From a virus, in the IMG/VR virus record IMGVR_UViG_3300034167_000448, positions 1-44,491 of that record: 44,491 nucleotides of DNA; one strand, 5' to 3'. Made by a program: the position numbers and the translations under genes. The notes beneath the pieces are model-generated. The model was not told the DNA's origin and did not search any database. It saw nothing but the letters and a program-made list of their open reading frames with translations. Every line of letters begins with the position of its first letter. Positions within the stretch are counted from its first letter, which is position 1. Shown in pieces: positions 21,545-44,491 of the stretch.

Positions 21545-21590
21545 AACCTCAGCCAAAAGGGTTATTTATTTGGTAGATTTGGCTGAGGTT
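21545..21590 (-). terminator. Long hairpin after the primase gene
   Basis: A perfect 13-base stem (AACCTCAGCCAAA at 21545-21557 with TTTGGCTGAGGTT at 21578-21590) overlaps the primase stop codon. No clear U-run follows on the minus strand, so it may be an mRNA end protector or a weak terminator rather than a full stop. Confidence 0.6.
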
Positions 21591-23904
21591 AAAACATAAC
21601 TTCTTCTTCAGTTCCTTCTTCTCCGACCATAAACCATTTCATTCCGTTGCTATTACCATCATCGTATTTAATATCTCTAAACTGGCAATACTTTTGTATG
21701 AATATTTGGAATCGTTTGTGTGTTAATTTAAATTGAGCAAAATCAGGATAATCACGTTTGAAATTATCTAAATAAATCTGCTTATCTAATCGTATTCCTA
21801 TCGGTAGGTTTTCGCTATCCATTGACCATTCGTTAAACTCAGGAGATGTACTTGCTATAAACTTACGTAGTTTAGTGTTCTTACTATTTTGAGCAATCAA
21901 TCCATAAGTGAAATAAGTTTGTAAGCAATCGACCATATAATTGTCAAAGTTATTAAAATCCTTAAGTTCCCAATCATCAAACAACTGCCTTCCAAAATCT
22001 TGTTCAGGTGTTAAGTTCTTACCATAATATTGTGCTATCTCTAATTCGTGCCTTCTACGGTCTTGTGAGTGTCCATCTCCTTTGATTGCATAGTTAGTAG
22101 AGATGATTACTTTAGGAGATTCGTGTACATTTAGCTTGATAGCATCTTTGTTTTTCTTCTCTAATGTAATTCCTTCTGTAATCAAACTAAAGTTATTCTC
22201 AAAATCAAATCCTTTCTTAACATCATCAAACACAAGTACTTTGGTTTCTAACGATATGGTTTGGTACGAGAATTGTTTTTTACTATCGTACTGCTTACCA
22301 TCTATAATGTCCGTTCTTCTAATCTGACCAATCCCTTGTACGAATAATCCTTTTCCAGTTCCTCCTTCGGGAGATTCTGATATAATCTCGTCATTAAGGA
22401 TTACAGCCTTGTTTTGAGAACGATTTTTATAATTTAATAGTAAGTAACCTATCGTACATTTCATTGCAAGAGAATCGTTGTGAGATATGTTCTCGATGAA
22501 CTTTTGATAGTCGTTGTCGCTTGATTTTGTTTTTACCCAGTCACGTTCCAATATTTGGCTCTCCCAAATGTACCCATCCATTTCAAAATACTCTTTTAAT
22601 TCTACTCCAGTTTGAGTTACTTCTAAGATACCATTTGAAAATGGAATATAACTTGTATCTTTAAAATCCTTCAGCATCATTAGGTCGATAGTTTCTAACA
22701 TTATCAAATATTGCTCAGTAAACAAGTTATGATAAGTTGAGCAGTAATTAAATACATCGATATGCTTTCCTTGAAGTAGGTAGGTAAGAACAAAATCCTT
22801 TATCCTTGCTACTGACGATTCTCTTACTTTATTAGATTTAATAAATACAAACATCGGTTTGTCAGAACCATTTGGATAATGTTTAGCAAATCCTTTTTCC
22901 TCTAAAAACATTTTGTATTTTAGTGAGTCAATCTTTACATTGTCCTTTTTATCTAAATACCAAAAGTTATCATTCTCACTTACCTCTTTTAAATCATCAA
23001 ATGTGCTATCGTCAATACTATGAATTTTCATCACTTCTGCTTTACCTCGATGTAAGTCAAGTTTAATTCTGTCTATTTTCTGATAATCCTCGAAATACTT
23101 AGAATCGAATTGCCTTTTACGGTAAGCAGACTTAATGGTGTTCTTTGCTTCTTGTTCTGAAAACTCTCCTATAATCACGTTGTTAATAATATATCCTTCG
23201 GCAGTATATTGTGTAATTCCATACTCGCAAAACGCTCCAGCGATATCAAACACAAACGCATTACGCTCTCCTTCATTAAATCCTTTACCCCAATTAAATT
23301 TCATTATCTTATCAATAATTTTATCCTCATCAGTAATTGGAATTAATGGCACACGCTCAGCAATTGTAAATCCCTCATCAATTAGTTTTGCATCAAACAT
23401 TTCAGCATCGTAATTAACATAGATATTAGGGTCATAGGATTCAAAACAAACTCTGTCCACATTGGAATTAGCAATGTCAAAATAATCAAAGTCAAATTTC
23501 TTCTGAAATGCCTTAAAATATTTAGGATGCGTTTCTTTGGTGGCTACTGGTATTTTTACAACTCCCTTTATACCGTTCCCTGACGGAGATATAAACAAAA
23601 GAACGAAGTGTGGATTTTGCTTCAATAACTCAAAATGTTCGTTAATATGTACAATATCGGGGTATTTGTCGTAATCTACAACCATTAGTCCTGAATGATT
23701 AATTAATCCATTTGAATTTCTCTCGGTAAATTCTCCAGCGAATAAGATACAAGGAAGTTGTTTTTTCAAATCTTCTCCTTTTCTAATACGCTCAATTAAA
23801 TCTTTGCTTTTCCCATCTCTAATTCTCGCAACAACTTTTTCGATTGGCACGATAAATGGAACTTCTTTTGATTTTAATAAATCTCTAAAAACTGATACTT
23901 TCAT
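21589..23904 (-). CDS. Primase-helicase (BT4734/VirE-type primase, SF3-like helicase)
   Basis: A protein of 771 residues. The N-terminal part (about 1-300) shows the BT4734/VirE-type primase layout: an acidic VVDYDKY strand, SPSGNGIKGVV and later DRVCFESYDPNIYVN, a PrimPol-like arrangement typical of Bacteroidetes mobile elements. The C-terminal half has Walker A GGTGKG (near 515), Walker B VLVFDDV, a sensor-like IISTNYAI and the Arg-rich DRRRHELE, as in D5-type superfamily 3 helicases. It likely primes and unwinds at the phage origin. Its start overlaps the methyltransferase stop by one base and a long hairpin covers its stop. Confidence 0.85.
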   Translation of the reverse strand: MKVSVFRDLLKSKEVPFIVPIEKVVARIRDGKSKDLIERIRKGEDLKKQLPCILFAGEFTERNSNGLINHSGLMVVDYDKYPDIVHINEHFELLKQNPHFVLLFISPSGNGIKGVVKIPVATKETHPKYFKAFQKKFDFDYFDIANSNVDRVCFESYDPNIYVNYDAEMFDAKLIDEGFTIAERVPLIPITDEDKIIDKIMKFNWGKGFNEGERNAFVFDIAGAFCEYGITQYTAEGYIINNVIIGEFSEQEAKNTIKSAYRKRQFDSKYFEDYQKIDRIKLDLHRGKAEVMKIHSIDDSTFDDLKEVSENDNFWYLDKKDNVKIDSLKYKMFLEEKGFAKHYPNGSDKPMFVFIKSNKVRESSVARIKDFVLTYLLQGKHIDVFNYCSTYHNLFTEQYLIMLETIDLMMLKDFKDTSYIPFSNGILEVTQTGVELKEYFEMDGYIWESQILERDWVKTKSSDNDYQKFIENISHNDSLAMKCTIGYLLLNYKNRSQNKAVILNDEIISESPEGGTGKGLFVQGIGQIRRTDIIDGKQYDSKKQFSYQTISLETKVLVFDDVKKGFDFENNFSLITEGITLEKKNKDAIKLNVHESPKVIISTNYAIKGDGHSQDRRRHELEIAQYYGKNLTPEQDFGRQLFDDWELKDFNNFDNYMVDCLQTYFTYGLIAQNSKNTKLRKFIASTSPEFNEWSMDSENLPIGIRLDKQIYLDNFKRDYPDFAQFKLTHKRFQIFIQKYCQFRDIKYDDGNSNGMKWFMVGEEGTEEEVMF

Positions 23905-24722
23905 TATTGTAAATTTTTAAATATATGTGCAATCACATCAACTGTCCAACTATTTCCTAATGCGTGAAATCTTCTTCCTTCAGATATTCCTAAAGTATAA
24001 TCAACTGAAAATGTTTGTAATTTCTCTGCTTCAATAGAATTTAGTTTAGAATATTTATTTTTCTCATCATTCAAATAATAATTTCTCGGATGTGTTTTAG
24101 ACGTAGTTAAACAATTAGATTTTTCAGATTTTAATAGTTTTAAGTTATCTAATTTCGATTTTTCACCCCATTTACTATAAACCCATTTGCCTAATTCTTT
24201 CCATTCTCTATCATAACTTACTATATCTTTTAATAGTATGTTTTTATCTTCAGGTATTTCTATATTAGGAATATTAGTCCAATATAATCTTTTTCTATTT
24301 TGAGCTGAAACTAAATTACTATTGATTTCTATTGGTTTTACACCTAACAAATTAGATATAACATTCTCCCATTCTTTTTTCATTTTTACATTCTCCAATA
24401 AAAAGTAAGTAGGATTTGTTTCTTTCAATACTCTAATATACTCATAAAATAAACCGCTTTTACCATCAAACCCACTTCCATCTCCTATTATTGAAAATGA
24501 CTGACAAGGCGAACCTCCACATAATAAATCAATTTTAGGTAAATTTGAAACGTCTAAACTAACAACATCTCCAACCTGAATTGTGTTTGGATAATTTTTC
24601 ATTGTTACTTGGATAGCATATTTGTCTATCTCACTTGCGTAGTAATTATCTACTTTAATTCCAGCTCTCTCTAAAGCTACTTGACCTGCCGATATTCCAT
24701 CGAATAAACTTAATACATTCAT
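23904..24722 (-). CDS. DNA (cytosine-5) methyltransferase
   Basis: A protein of 272 residues with ordered C5-methyltransferase motifs: LSLFDGISAG (I, 4-13), GGSPCQSFS (IV, catalytic Cys73), ENV (VI, 110-112), QNRKRLYW (VIII, 141-148) and GNSWTVDVI (X, 256-264). The target recognition region is short, as in other small phage enzymes. No restriction endonuclease partner is visible, so it probably protects phage DNA from host restriction. A terminator-like hairpin lies 13 bases before the start, suggesting attenuated expression. Confidence 0.92.
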   Translation of the reverse strand: MNVLSLFDGISAGQVALERAGIKVDNYYASEIDKYAIQVTMKNYPNTIQVGDVVSLDVSNLPKIDLLCGGSPCQSFSIIGDGSGFDGKSGLFYEYIRVLKETNPTYFLLENVKMKKEWENVISNLLGVKPIEINSNLVSAQNRKRLYWTNIPNIEIPEDKNILLKDIVSYDREWKELGKWVYSKWGEKSKLDNLKLLKSEKSNCLTTSKTHPRNYYLNDEKNKYSKLNSIEAEKLQTFSVDYTLGISEGRRFHALGNSWTVDVIAHIFKNLQ

Positions 24723-27014: not shown

Positions 27015-27269
27015 TTATTTCTTTTTAAATTGGTCAAACCATTTTTTCATTGCTTTAGAAAAAGGTAAATCTCCATCTCTTAATTGCCAACCATCAAGGA
27101 AAGCAGTTTTTAAATCTTCCTCACTATAACTTCTTTCTTGTTGCCATTTAGCACCTTTGATAAATGCTTTTTTACAGTTAGCGTGTAAAGTTTTTTCATT
27201 TGAATCAGAATAATCCCATATTTTACTTGCATATTTTTCAGCAACTTCTTCAAGTGTTTCTTTTTTCAT
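27015..27269 (-). CDS. Conserved phage protein, 84 residues
   Basis: Contains KAFIKGAKWQQERSYSEEDL, a pattern frequent in small proteins of phages of Bacteroidetes and other groups. Predicted helical and charged. The start overlaps the HTH gene upstream by 4 bases. No function is established. Confidence 0.6.
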   Translation of the reverse strand: MKKETLEEVAEKYASKIWDYSDSNEKTLHANCKKAFIKGAKWQQERSYSEEDLKTAFLDGWQLRDGDLPFSKAMKKWFDQFKKK

Positions 27270-29339: not shown

Positions 29340-29440
29340 TACTGTTTTAGAAAACTTTAACACAAAAGTGCTGTTTTGTAGGAAAAAAGTATTGAAAAGT
29401 GCCATTTTTCATTTTTTATAAAAAAAAAGTGCGTTTTTAT

Positions 29441-29481
29441 ACCCCCCCCCTAAACAAAATACCAAAATAGGGTGGGGGGGT
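29441..29481 (+). promoter_or_regulatory. C-run/G-run hairpin of module A
   Basis: An A followed by nine C (29442-29450), a 19-base A-rich loop, then GGG-T-GGGGGGG-T (29470-29481). In an A+T-rich genome this is very stable. T-rich sequence follows on the plus strand (TCTATTTCC), so it may terminate transcription, or the G-run may bind protein or form a quadruplex in trans. Confidence 0.65.
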
Positions 29482-29560
29482 CTATTTCCTATTATTTTAT
29501 AAAAAAAACTAATTAATTAATATATATATAAAAATAGTAGTATAGTATTAATTAATTTAT

Positions 29561-29568
29561 TATCTTTG
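29561..29568 (+). promoter_or_regulatory. Late-type promoter in module A
   Basis: TATCTTTG followed by TAGCAA, identical around the box to module B. No -33 TTG is present; instead ATAGTATTAATTAATTT lies upstream in both copies. This suggests recognition with a phage factor. Confidence 0.6.
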
Positions 29569-29589
29569 TAGCAACTAATATATTTATTT

Positions 29590-30838: not shown

Positions 30839-30938
30839 CGGTGGGTTTAGTTCCGTTTATACGGTGGGTTTAGTTCCATTTATACGGTGGGTTTAGTTCC
30901 GTTTGGTCGGTGGGTTTAGTTCCGTTTGGTCGGTGGGT
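30839..30938 (+). repeat. 23-base direct repeats, four and a third copies
   Basis: Four adjacent copies start CGGTGGGTTTAGTTCC and end GTTTATA, ATTTATA, GTTTGGT and GTTTGGT; a fifth stops after CGGTGGGT. Copies begin at 30839, 30862, 30885 and 30908. There are no spacers, so it is not a CRISPR array. The unit is G-rich on this strand in an A+T-rich region, as iterons or operator arrays often are. ACCCACCG, the inverse of its first 8 bases, appears at 33899-33906 right after the 16-base array. Confidence 0.95.
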
Positions 30939-33066: not shown

Positions 33067-33642
33067 ATGAAAACAATTGAAATAAAATTATATAAATTTA
33101 CAGAATTAAGCGAACAAGCCAAAAATGTAGCAATTGAAAAACAAAGAAACCACGAAATAGATTTTGATTGGTTTTCTGATTATTGCCACGAACAAATAAG
33201 CGAAAAAGGTTTTAAAGGTAATATAAAATTGCAATATAGTTTGTCTTATTGTCAAGGCGACGGGCTGTCTTTTTCGTGTGACTATTTTAACAATTTAAAT
33301 GCCTTATTTGTTGAAATTTTAGGCACTGAAAAGCAAAAAACAATAGACTGTATAATTAATAATTGCAGCCTAAAAATTAAAGGCAATGACCGCCGCTATT
33401 GTTATGCTCATAGAAACGATATTAACTTTGAATTGGATAACTATTACGTAAAAAGCAGCACTAATTTAGATAATTTAATTAGTGAAGTTGAAAGCAAATT
33501 AAAGGACTTATATATTGACTTATGTAACGAATTACAAAAACAAGGATATGACGATATCGAAAACCAATATAGCGACGAATATATTACGGAAACATTAATA
33601 GAAAAAGATTATTATTTTACTATTGACGGCTTAATTTATTAA
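33067..33642 (+). CDS. Conserved phage protein of unknown function, 191 residues
   Basis: KLYKFTELSEQAKNVAIEKQ at the N-terminus is the hallmark of a common phage family (the LSxxAKxxAI pattern), followed by WFSDYCHEQISEKGF and LQYSLSYCQGDGLSFSCDY, where the QGDG motif is conserved in the family. The role is not established, though some members are annotated as antitoxin-like. It closes the rightward small-gene operon. Confidence 0.65.
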   Translation: MKTIEIKLYKFTELSEQAKNVAIEKQRNHEIDFDWFSDYCHEQISEKGFKGNIKLQYSLSYCQGDGLSFSCDYFNNLNALFVEILGTEKQKTIDCIINNCSLKIKGNDRRYCYAHRNDINFELDNYYVKSSTNLDNLISEVESKLKDLYIDLCNELQKQGYDDIENQYSDEYITETLIEKDYYFTIDGLIY

Positions 33643-33659
33643 TGTTTTCAAGGAATTAG

Positions 33660-33749
33660 ACAAAAAAACACAAAGACAACGCCTTCAATTTTCGCACAAA
33701 CGTATAGAAACATTTATAGAGATTAAAACCTTTATAGATGTTTTTTTGT
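33660..33749 (+). terminator. Long-range inverted repeat after the small-gene operon
   Basis: ACAAAAAAACA (33660-33670) pairs with TGTTTTTTTGT (33739-33749) across 68 bases. The stem is A-U only and distant, so it is a weak terminator candidate at best; the T-run at its right end could still help release RNA. Confidence 0.35.
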
Positions 33750-33761
33750 GTCTTATTCCTT

Positions 33762-33889
33762 CAGGTGCATACTCTTACAGGTGCATACTCTTACAGGTGC
33801 ATACTCTTACAGGTGCATACTCTTACAGGTGCATACTCTTACAGGTGCATACTCTTACAGGTGCATACTCTTACAGGTGCATACTCTTA
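33762..33889 (+). repeat. Eight perfect 16-base tandem repeats
   Basis: The unit CAGGTGCATACTCTTA is repeated eight times without a single change, 128 bases in all, with no spacers. It lies between the small-gene operon and the terminase genes. Perfect identity implies recent expansion or strong conversion. Iteron-type replication origin, regulator-binding array or recombination hot spot are all possible; translation is unlikely because the frame shifts with each unit. Confidence 0.97.
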
Positions 33890-33922
33890 CAACAAGCCAC
33901 CCACCGAAAAGAAACCAAAGGC

Positions 33923-33982
33923 AAAAACAGACCCCCAGCCACTGAAAATGACACAAGCTAAGCTAAAAACAGACCCCCAGCC
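33923..33982 (+). repeat. Direct repeat of 18 bases beside the tandem array
   Basis: AAAAACAGACCCCCAGCC occurs at 33923-33940 and again at 33965-33982, 42 bases apart (four turns of DNA), so both copies would face the same side of the helix. C-rich words like these are rare in this genome outside the control modules. Confidence 0.85.
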
Positions 33983-34322
33983 CCCCTATTTTGAAACGAC
34001 ATAGACTATATCTAACCCCCTCCATAAATTTTTTCCACACAATATAACTTTTCATTTGCAGTATTTTCTTACATATATTTATTCAAAGACCCTACAAAAA
34101 TTTTTTCCCTATTCTATATACTTTTTGAAAGAGAGAAGATTCTTACAAGTTGTAAAAATAAAATAAAAGCCGTTTGTTGTCGTTTAATCCACTTTTGAGT
34201 TAGAAATACAAATTATTTAAGATTACAGTTCCAACTAAAAAATAGAAATGTCTTGTTTTGTAGGAAAAAAGTATGAAAAACGGCACTTTTTGAAAAAACG
34301 TAAAAAAAAAACACACTTTTAT

Positions 34323-34362
34323 ACCCCCCCCCTAAAAAGTGATGTACGAAATAGGGGGGGGT
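34323..34362 (+). promoter_or_regulatory. C-run/G-run hairpin of module B
   Basis: A plus nine C (34324-34332), CTA extended pairing, a loop of about 20 bases, TAG and eight G (34354-34361). It is even more regular than the copy in module A. T-rich sequence follows. It may insulate the late operon from upstream transcription or mark DNA for packaging. Confidence 0.65.
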
Positions 34363-34440
34363 CTATTTTCCTTTATTTTATAAAATATTATTATTATTAA
34401 AAAAATATATATATATATATAATAGTATTAATTAATTTTG

Positions 34441-34448
34441 TAACTTTG
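34441..34448 (+). promoter_or_regulatory. Late-type promoter of the terminase operon
   Basis: TAACTTTG preceded by AATTTTG and followed by TAGCAA. No TTG at -33. It shares 18 bases with the promoter before the tape measure gene and is the likely start of the rightward morphogenesis transcript. Confidence 0.65.
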
Positions 34449-34472
34449 TAGCAATTATTATAATTTATAAGA

Positions 34473-34910
34473 ATGGAAAGAGATAAAGTATTTTTGGATA
34501 TTATTCAACAGATAGAGTTGGGTCGTTCAATAAAGAATATATTAGATGGTGATGATTTCCCAATCACACGAGGTACTTTCTACAGCTGGTTAAATGACAA
34601 TCCCGATAGAATAGAATTATATAAGAAAGCTACTGAAATACGTGCTGATGGTATCTTTGACGATATGTTAGAGATTTCTGATGATGGTACTAAGGACTAT
34701 TACTATGATGTTAATGGAAACAGACAACAAAGTATGGTTGCAGTTAATCGCTCTAGGTTACAACTTGACACTCGTAAATGGGTATTGGGGAGAATGAATC
34801 CTAAGAAGTATAGTGAGAAGTTAGATATTACTTCAGGAGGCGATAAATTGAAAATAGTTCCGATTATAGGGATGCAGATTATTAACCAAGAAGAAGAAGT
34901 TGCAGAATAA
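34473..34910 (+). CDS. terS: Terminase small subunit
   Basis: A protein of 145 residues. The N-terminal helix-turn-helix (IKNILDGDDFPITRGTFYSW) would bind the packaging site; the middle (EIRADGIFDDMLEISDD) and C-terminal RSRLQLDTRKWVLGRMNPKK match terminase small subunits of many phages. It recognises phage DNA and recruits the large subunit. First gene of the rightward morphogenesis block, overlapping terL by 11 bases, with module B directly upstream. Confidence 0.88.
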   Translation: MERDKVFLDIIQQIELGRSIKNILDGDDFPITRGTFYSWLNDNPDRIELYKKATEIRADGIFDDMLEISDDGTKDYYYDVNGNRQQSMVAVNRSRLQLDTRKWVLGRMNPKKYSEKLDITSGGDKLKIVPIIGMQIINQEEEVAE

Positions 34911-36258
34911 AAGCCTATCGCTAAATGTAAGAGGTAATTTAAAGCAGTTAGAGGCAATAAAAGCTTGGACTGATAAAACTACCATTGATATTGTTTATGG
35001 TGGCTCTAAAGGCTCAGGAAAGACTTTTATAGGGTGTTCTTTGATATGTGCTGATGCACTGATGTATCCTGAAACGCATTACTTCATTGCGAGAAAGACT
35101 TTGGCAGATTTACGTAAGTTTACCATTCCTTCTATTCAAGAGGTTTTAAGTGGATGGGGAATAACGGAAGATTATTATAGTTTTAATGGTCAAGATAACT
35201 ATTTTAAGTTTCACAATAAGTCTAAGATATTTTTGATTGATGCGAAGTATTTACCAAGTGACCCGAACTATATGAGATTTGGGGGTATGCAGAATACTCG
35301 TGGTTGGATTGAAGAAGCTGGAGAGTTTGATATAGAGTGTAAGAATAACTTACAAGCCTCTATTGGTCGTTGGAAGAATAAGGAGTATAATTTAGCTCCA
35401 AAGTTGTTGCAGACTTGTAACCCTAGTAAAAATTATTTATACAAAGATTATTATAAAGCAACAATTGATGGTAATATTCCAAGCCACAAGAAATTCATTC
35501 AAGCCTTGCCAACAGATAACAAAACACTACCTGAGGATTATGTTCCCAACTTAATGAAGATATTGAGTCACAACGAGATTCAAAGACTTGTGTATGGGAA
35601 TTGGGAATTTGATGATAATCCTTATGCGATGTTTGAGTATTCAGATATTCTTGGATTATATACAAATGAGTTTGTAAAGCCTACCGAACAGAGGTATATG
35701 ACTTGTGACATTGCTTATACTGGTTCTGATAAGTTTGTTATTGTGATATGGGCAGGATTTGTAGCATTGAAGATAATCGCAATTGATAAGATTGACGATA
35801 CGATGGTGAGTAAGAAGATAAATGAGTTGAGAATAGAGAATAGAGTGCCGCTTAAAAATGTGATATATGATGCTGATGGATTGCAGACATTTACGAGAGC
35901 ATCAACAAAGTTAGGTAATTTAGTAGGAGCAACACCATTTAACAATAATGGGAAACCGATAAAAATGCACGGAAAGACTGAGAACTTTAAGAATTTAAAA
36001 GCTCAATGTTACTGGTATTTTGCAGAAGCGGTTAAGGATTCTAAGATGTTTATTCAAGAAGATAAATATAGAAAGCAAGTTATCGAGGAATTAGAGCAGA
36101 TAAACAGACAGCCATTACAAGATGATGGTAAGATAGCTCTAGAGAAAAAGGAAGAAATAAAAAAGAGGATAGGTCGCTCTCCTGATTTTGCTGATGCGTT
36201 AATGATGCGATTTTTCTTTGAGTTAAAGGGTAAGCCGAGATTAAGGATAATTTGGTAA
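34900..36258 (+). CDS. terL: Terminase large subunit
   Basis: A protein of 452 residues. Walker A is GGSKGSGKT (34-42), Walker B GWIEEAGE (135-142, with paired acidic residues), a coupling-type CNPS follows, and the RNase H-like nuclease shows CDIAYTGSDKF (Asp270, Asp277), YDADG (near 324) and SPDFADAL near the C-terminus. It pumps DNA into the prohead and cuts it. The order terS-terL-portal is standard. Confidence 0.95.
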   Translation: MQNKSLSLNVRGNLKQLEAIKAWTDKTTIDIVYGGSKGSGKTFIGCSLICADALMYPETHYFIARKTLADLRKFTIPSIQEVLSGWGITEDYYSFNGQDNYFKFHNKSKIFLIDAKYLPSDPNYMRFGGMQNTRGWIEEAGEFDIECKNNLQASIGRWKNKEYNLAPKLLQTCNPSKNYLYKDYYKATIDGNIPSHKKFIQALPTDNKTLPEDYVPNLMKILSHNEIQRLVYGNWEFDDNPYAMFEYSDILGLYTNEFVKPTEQRYMTCDIAYTGSDKFVIVIWAGFVALKIIAIDKIDDTMVSKKINELRIENRVPLKNVIYDADGLQTFTRASTKLGNLVGATPFNNNGKPIKMHGKTENFKNLKAQCYWYFAEAVKDSKMFIQEDKYRKQVIEELEQINRQPLQDDGKIALEKKEEIKKRIGRSPDFADALMMRFFFELKGKPRLRIIW

Positions 36259-43831: not shown

Positions 43832-44458
43832 ATGATTGAATACTATGATAGCTTAGAAGTGTTACCACTATACAACTGGGATAAATACACTACAACAAGA
43901 GATAATAATTGGTTGATAATTGATTTCAATGGTAGACAGCCTAAAATAGACAATGAAGAATTGACTGCATTAGAAGGCAAATTACAAGAGGAATATTTTA
44001 AGCTAGTTGATGATAGGACTTTTGTAAAAAAGTTGCAGAAATGGGCTAAAATCGATAATCTACGCACACGTTACAATGTAATAGCGATGTTGTGTCAAAG
44101 ATTATGGTTAGGTTTTGGAGATATGCAGATGGAATTAAGGCAAAACTACATTGAAATAATAAACAAGTTCGGTTTTAGTATGCCTTTGATAAATACAGTT
44201 GAAGGAGATGCAGAAGAAATAGCTAAGATAACAAACGCTATGCAAAACATTAAAACGCAAATTGAAATGCTTGAATCAGAATTAAAAACTGACGAGAAAA
44301 AACAGACACACAGTCTTAATAAGCAAATGGTTTTAGTGAGTTTAGGATTAGGGTTAGCATATAAAATAGATTCAAAGCAAACTACTGTAAGCGAATGGAT
44401 TGAGCTTTGTAAATTATTAGAAGAAAAAAATTCTCAACAAGCGAGAGCTAATAAGTAA
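43832..44458 (+). CDS. Putative tail assembly chaperone, second gene
   Basis: A protein of 208 residues, helical and charged (LQKWAKIDNLRTRYNVIAML, then a coiled coil near 128-160). It stands where gpGT-like proteins are encoded, before the tape measure gene, from which it is now separated by the homing endonuclease gene. The 3' end is repeated at the window start with one residue changed (Ser here, Ala there). Confidence 0.6.
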   Translation: MIEYYDSLEVLPLYNWDKYTTTRDNNWLIIDFNGRQPKIDNEELTALEGKLQEEYFKLVDDRTFVKKLQKWAKIDNLRTRYNVIAMLCQRLWLGFGDMQMELRQNYIEIINKFGFSMPLINTVEGDAEEIAKITNAMQNIKTQIEMLESELKTDEKKQTHSLNKQMVLVSLGLGLAYKIDSKQTTVSEWIELCKLLEEKNSQQARANK

Positions 44459-44491
44459 TTATAAATCTCGTAATGCTTTTTGATATGCTTC
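44305..44491. repeat. Right copy of the 187-base terminal direct repeat
   Basis: Same 187 bases as 1-187, with T at 44432 where the left copy has G at 128. Joining the ends gives continuous genes on both sides, so the whole genome is in this window. Confidence 0.95.
44459..44491 (-). CDS. 3' fragment of the homing endonuclease gene
   Basis: The last ten codons and stop of the endonuclease encoded at 155-631, present only because the sequence overlaps itself. Not a separate gene. Confidence 0.9.
   Translation of the reverse strand, partial: EAYQKALRDL

Follow-up and report, generated by a model that had tools for sequence, protein, structure and literature searches.

We analysed a viral DNA of 44,491 bases (IMG/VR virus record IMGVR_UViG_3300034167_000448, here called the window), in which a tandem repeat, array A, lies upstream of the terminase genes. 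At 33762-33889 on the + strand, the 16-base unit CAGGTGCATACTCTTA, with the core CAGGTGC, occurs eight times, all copies being perfect. The original prediction had described eight identical 16-base repeats in a gene-free region of 830 bases and had proposed an iteron origin or a regulator array. Tandem Repeats Finder (TRF) confirmed the repeats (period 16, 8.1 copies, 100% match, 33762-33891), and a search of the window for CAGGTGCATACTCTTA with up to 3 mismatches returned these 8 copies only, where 0.32 would be expected by chance; 8 copies were reached in none of 100 shuffles (0/100). The gap was likewise confirmed, at 33643-34472 (830 bases). It is bordered on the left by a + strand gene (33067-33642) and on the right by terS, which encodes the small terminase subunit (34473-34910, +; Sf6_terminase, E 7.5e-26), followed by terL for the large subunit (34900-36258, +; phrog_2 and related, and tblastn to phage TerL). 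Of all the readings an iteron-like origin has the strongest support, and a regulatory array ranks far lower. We regard array A, tentatively and at just under an even chance, as an iteron-like, auxiliary part of a replication origin of the phage, situated in the gap that precedes terS, because the gap carries a GC-skew jump and a conserved AT-rich block, and because the phage encodes a primase-helicase, like those of P4 and of Staphylococcus aureus pathogenicity islands (SaPIs), with a predicted winged helix.

Read from left to right, the gap begins with the element TTAGACAAAAAAAC...TTCGCACAAACGTA, also given as TTAGACAAAAAAAC..CGCACAAACGTA (33656-33704, +), which is conserved in relatives (here and below, loci collected by TerL). 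It precedes the terminator in close relatives but follows it in distant ones and, because this position shifts, is probably a DNA element. An intrinsic terminator (33706-33747, +; hairpin and T run, fold z-score -6.5) closes the upstream + operon; hairpin and T run are kept among the relatives and the stem sequence varies. Array A comes next, and beyond it lie C-rich blocks (33928-33986, +) in which CAGACCCCCAGCC occurs twice at a 42-base distance (33928 and 33970), with AT-rich DNA following, as the original prediction had also noted. In relatives the C-rich block is kept but is mostly not paired. The most conserved block, ACCCCCTCCATAAATTTTTTCC...TATAACTTTT, occupies 34014-34055 (+), one per genome, and is a candidate opening region. 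This AT-rich block consists of ACCCCCTCYAMAAATTTTTWCC, with TATAACTTTT after it in close relatives; in the relatives covering the site ACCCCCTCYAMAAATTTTTWCC is found once per genome, at the gap, and it is kept down to about 50% TerS identity. The alignment of relatives revealed a second, similar AT-rich element, CTACAAAAATTTTTTCCC...TATACTTTTTGAA, at 34092-34128 (+). Direct repeats of like length and spacing and an adjoining conserved AT-rich block, both features by which an iteron origin is recognised, are seen at this putative origin.

Before terS lies a promoter-like module (34246-34468, +), with a poly-C/poly-G inverted repeat and the box TAACTTTG, by its consensus a -7 box of the Bacteroidetes type. 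Since a second copy of the module, at 29364-29587, also precedes a + strand gene, we read it as a promoter module and not as an origin. Array A sits between terminator and module, and could accordingly act on the late promoter in front of terS as an operator or enhancer, or insulate late from early transcription; the orientation of such arrays can flip, and a helix-turn-helix (HTH) protein, with a weak Mga match, is encoded at 27266. We consider this role quite improbable, as ~550 bases separate array and promoter, no array of this type was seen next to the copy at 29364-29587, and the HTH protein is 99% identical between the window and a close relative (G015) with different units.

Tandem arrays built of 14-17-base units are found at the corresponding position in about 16 relatives, where they follow a transcription terminator and precede terS by roughly 500-580 bases. 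Because these relatives were assembled independently, an assembly artefact, which the original prediction had listed among the findings that would refute it, is unlikely for array A, although several contigs (L015, L016, L026, L039) end within such arrays, so that exact copy numbers are uncertain. The units include CAGGTGCAGACTTATT in G001, CGGGTGCTTCATGTGTT in L012, CGGGTGCTGCATTAGTT in L011, CAGGTGCTGCCGTGTT in L017, CTGGTGCTGCCGCTGA in G015 and CAGGCTCACACTCTTA in L015 and L142, while L013 and L016 alternate units of 17 and 15 bases (mean 16). The exact two-unit pattern of array A had no match in IMG/VR, GenBank phages gave no nucleotide match, and a scan of ~26.7 kb stretches from phages 11b and P12002L showed no comparable tandem array. 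Since the 16-base period is not divisible by 3, the + strand frames stay open through array A (ORF, open reading frame, 33738-34004); a coding role was rejected, as the 15/17 periods and different sequences of the relatives leave no conserved protein. An RNA gene was also rejected, with no Rfam match up to E = 1.

Most of the arrays keep a CRGGTGC core at a spacing of 15-17 bases. In units aligned on the core, CRGGTGC holds 1.4-2.0 bits per column (0.7 in the R column) and the linker 0.2-1.2, values that are descriptive, since register and orientation of the units were chosen on the core itself. L014 and L048 have the core on the opposite strand, as do, on a looser match, L026 and L039. Turnover is clearest when the window is compared with G015. 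The two are 94% identical in DNA over a stretch that starts at the C-rich block, takes in terS and continues past it, and 81-95% identical on the left; they also have the same terminator flank. Their arrays nevertheless differ in copy number and in the entire linker. In the distant relatives L038, L041, L159 and L160, irregular quasi-repeats lie between terminator and block.

A neutral tandem-repeat hotspot might produce the same picture. GGTGC seeds flanking a non-essential stretch, which reaches from the terminator to the origin or promoter DNA, would let slippage and phage recombination generate an array without function. The perfect units would then reflect recent expansion, full replacement of the unit with unchanged flanks, as in G015, would be expected, as would the array's absence from three close lineages, and flanking GGTGC (for example in GGTGCAAAATTGCC at the array end) could seed, and hence conserve, the core. 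We nevertheless hold this explanation to be unlikely, though worth serious attention, given that the array occupies one site with a period of 14-17 in most relatives, the alternating 17/15 arrays with their mean of 16 included, against 13 to 31 in a second repeat locus, region B, and that the core is kept although the linker is replaced.

The iteron-like origin draws further support from base composition, + genes being C-rich at third positions to the left of the gap and G-rich to its right. Third-position G:C counts of + genes left and right of the gap are 53:110 and 127:48 in the window, 35:59 and 150:55 in G001, and 33:80 and 138:54 in G004. Four-fold sites pooled over relatives gave 172:241 and 486:215, counts in which the relatives are not independent and the left side takes in a few spurious ORFs across the array. 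When gene boundaries were ranked by local third-codon GC-skew jump, the gap was the largest in four of four genomes (window, G001, G004, G015). Since the genes on both sides read the same way, transcription direction alone is no explanation of this jump. A regression on gene strand and two switch points placed the best origin position of the window at 33750-34250.

The skew jump also bears on a role in packaging. Array A could be a pac site, whose repeats TerS, with an N-terminal HTH, would wrap in order to start headful packaging; TerS rings bind repeated sites, the array is just upstream of terS, and the near-repeated genome ends (see below) fit headful packaging. A pac site, however, leaves the skew jump unexplained. 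Moreover, TerS reaches 96% identity across phages whose units are unlike, the array is missing from close relatives that have the same TerS, and in one relative (G018) the array is in region B, ~3.5 kb from terS. A pac site is therefore improbable in our view.

The original prediction saw no initiator of a known iteron class, and in doing so overlooked a primase-helicase of 771 amino acids in the early operon (21589-23904, - strand) with BT4734_N, PriCT_1 and DUF5906, which is our candidate initiator. PriCT_1 and DUF5906 scored above Pfam cut-offs, and DUF5906 is presumably a D5-like helicase. Its C-terminus was modelled as a winged helix (local pLDDT, the predicted local distance difference test, ~88) in a second model, poor elsewhere and used for this domain only, the full-length AlphaFold model being too poor to use (pLDDT 52). 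The best structural matches of this predicted domain are RFX-type DNA-binding domains, with Z of 6.4-6.8, below the level showing kinship. The P4 origin-binding domain is not among the structural matches listed, which excludes nothing, and PDB searches by sequence gave nothing relevant.

A new initiator-repeat pair, which the original prediction had thought possible, is not supported. The units change fully among phages whose primase-helicase is 92-95% identical, and only the core of ~7 bases recurs; the near-identity of the HTH protein mentioned above points the same way. In close relatives identity is high along the primase-helicase, and no excess is seen at the C-terminus except over the last ~20 residues; co-variation of initiator and unit in this protein was set aside as unsupported. 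With a matched pair unsupported, only the short core could be read by the primase-helicase. A C5 cytosine methyltransferase gene adjoins it at 23904-24722; its product is 48-65% identical or undetected in relatives with a 92-95% identical primase.

P4 alpha binds the ori repeats via a winged helix (PMC4234260), and SaPI Rep and Cch2 of the staphylococcal cassette chromosome mec (SCCmec) bind iterons with their C-termini, Cch2 needing a 5-base iteron (PMC7581432). In P4, ori lies just before the late operon, like the putative origin here, and a second repeat locus is found elsewhere (crr; compare region B). The annotated P4 type 1 repeats are mostly TGTTCACC, with the reverse complement GGTGAACA; both orientations occur, as in our arrays, and GGTG is common to these short repeats and the array core. 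The parallel with GGTGC is suggestive but weak. Unlike the perfect 16-base tandem array, the P4 repeats are of 8 bases and irregularly spaced, and alpha has a bacterial-type (TOPRIM) primase. SaPI Rep and Cch2 have a D5/SF3-type helicase, as our candidate presumably does, and their C-terminal domain recognises short iterons (5 bases for Cch2; PMC7581432). Their origin, however, lies directly downstream of the helicase gene, whereas array A is ~10 kb away, and here the unit linker is replaced between close phages. Theta-plasmid iteron origins likewise have tandem repeats adjoining AT-rich DNA in a gene-free region, but no plasmid-type Rep was identified here, and no co-variation of the iteron sequence with the candidate initiator is seen.

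By comparison with P4 alpha and SaPI Rep, the primase-helicase may bind the CRGGTGC cores via its predicted C-terminal winged helix. Spaced at ~16 bases and present in many copies, the cores would load or concentrate it beside the conserved AT-rich block, which could then open and let forks depart both ways. We propose that only the short core matters, and that the linkers would therefore be free to be replaced via slippage and inter-phage recombination, the number and orientation of the array being flexible. A different view puts the linkers under diversifying selection: arrays swapped among phages that share an initiator would define a type of replication specificity or incompatibility, so that co-infecting relatives would not titrate one another's replication proteins. 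We regard this as very improbable.

Several observations weigh against an iteron-like origin at the gap. The right-hand skew is partly TerL-specific, TerL alone giving much of the right-hand value, and L019, which has no array, still has a skew difference. The whole-genome regression disagrees in G001 and is ambiguous in G004, where the gap nearly ties. The genome-wide two-switch model is not significant in the window (gene permutation 200/2000, p = 0.10); skew evidence for an origin at the gap is good locally and weak globally. The core is degenerate in L015/L142 (CAGGCTC), L014 (CAGATGC) and L026 (CAGGATC), and the CAGGTGC array of G018 lies ~3 kb away from the conserved block, in region B. 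With hhalign, no similarity was found between the primase-helicase and P4 alpha. Finally, the three close lineages without array are L019/L032, L021/L022 and L010. Relatives lacking repeats, combined with skew minima elsewhere, had been named at the outset as grounds for abandoning the idea; such relatives exist, and the largest local skew jump is not elsewhere.

Origins of Bacteroidota phages have hardly been mapped, and our literature searches, within the library used, found no report on this phage lineage. If the arrays are a functional iteron set, origin repeats would have undergone complete replacement, inversion or loss with almost no change in the machinery. Such an origin would depart from the close co-evolution of initiator and iteron that is usually assumed, and would offer a natural variant series for testing what part of an iteron is required. 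If neutral, the array would be useful as a recombination and typing marker. A Flavobacterium-type host is likely, since a relative with a TerL identity of 77% occurs inside a Flavobacterium metagenome-assembled genome.

The record begins and ends with nearly the same ~187 bases (1-187 and 44304-44491; one mismatch seen), which is consistent with terminal redundancy or with assembly overlap of a circular genome. For this reason the window probably represents an entire genome of ~44.3 kb, either circular or terminally redundant.

In the window, region B contains array B, with 23-base repeats carrying CGGTGGGTTT (30839-30938, +), intergenic between the early and + operons. Relatives have 13-, 21-, 23- or 26-mers in this region, and in G001, L102 and G018 an additional array of 30-, 31- or 16-mers lies immediately beside the array B position. 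Imperfect 15-base tandem repeats with a 5-residue period, in up to 34 copies, were seen at L010:4299-4588, L115:5911-6419 and L134:1-143, and apparently encode a KLAER/KSAER-like coiled coil.

The TerL of the window is uninterrupted, whereas two relatives have an insertion in its Walker A motif (GGSKG/C...HN/SGKS; L138:11373-13403 and L134:6076-8316). The insertion reads as an intein, with Intein_splicing and Hint matches in L134. Within it lies a second, overlapping open frame (11698-12267 in L138, 6404-6967 in L134), which encodes a NUMOD4-HNH_3 homing endonuclease in L138 and a visibly similar protein in L134, and which reads as an endonuclease gene nested out of frame inside the TerL intein.
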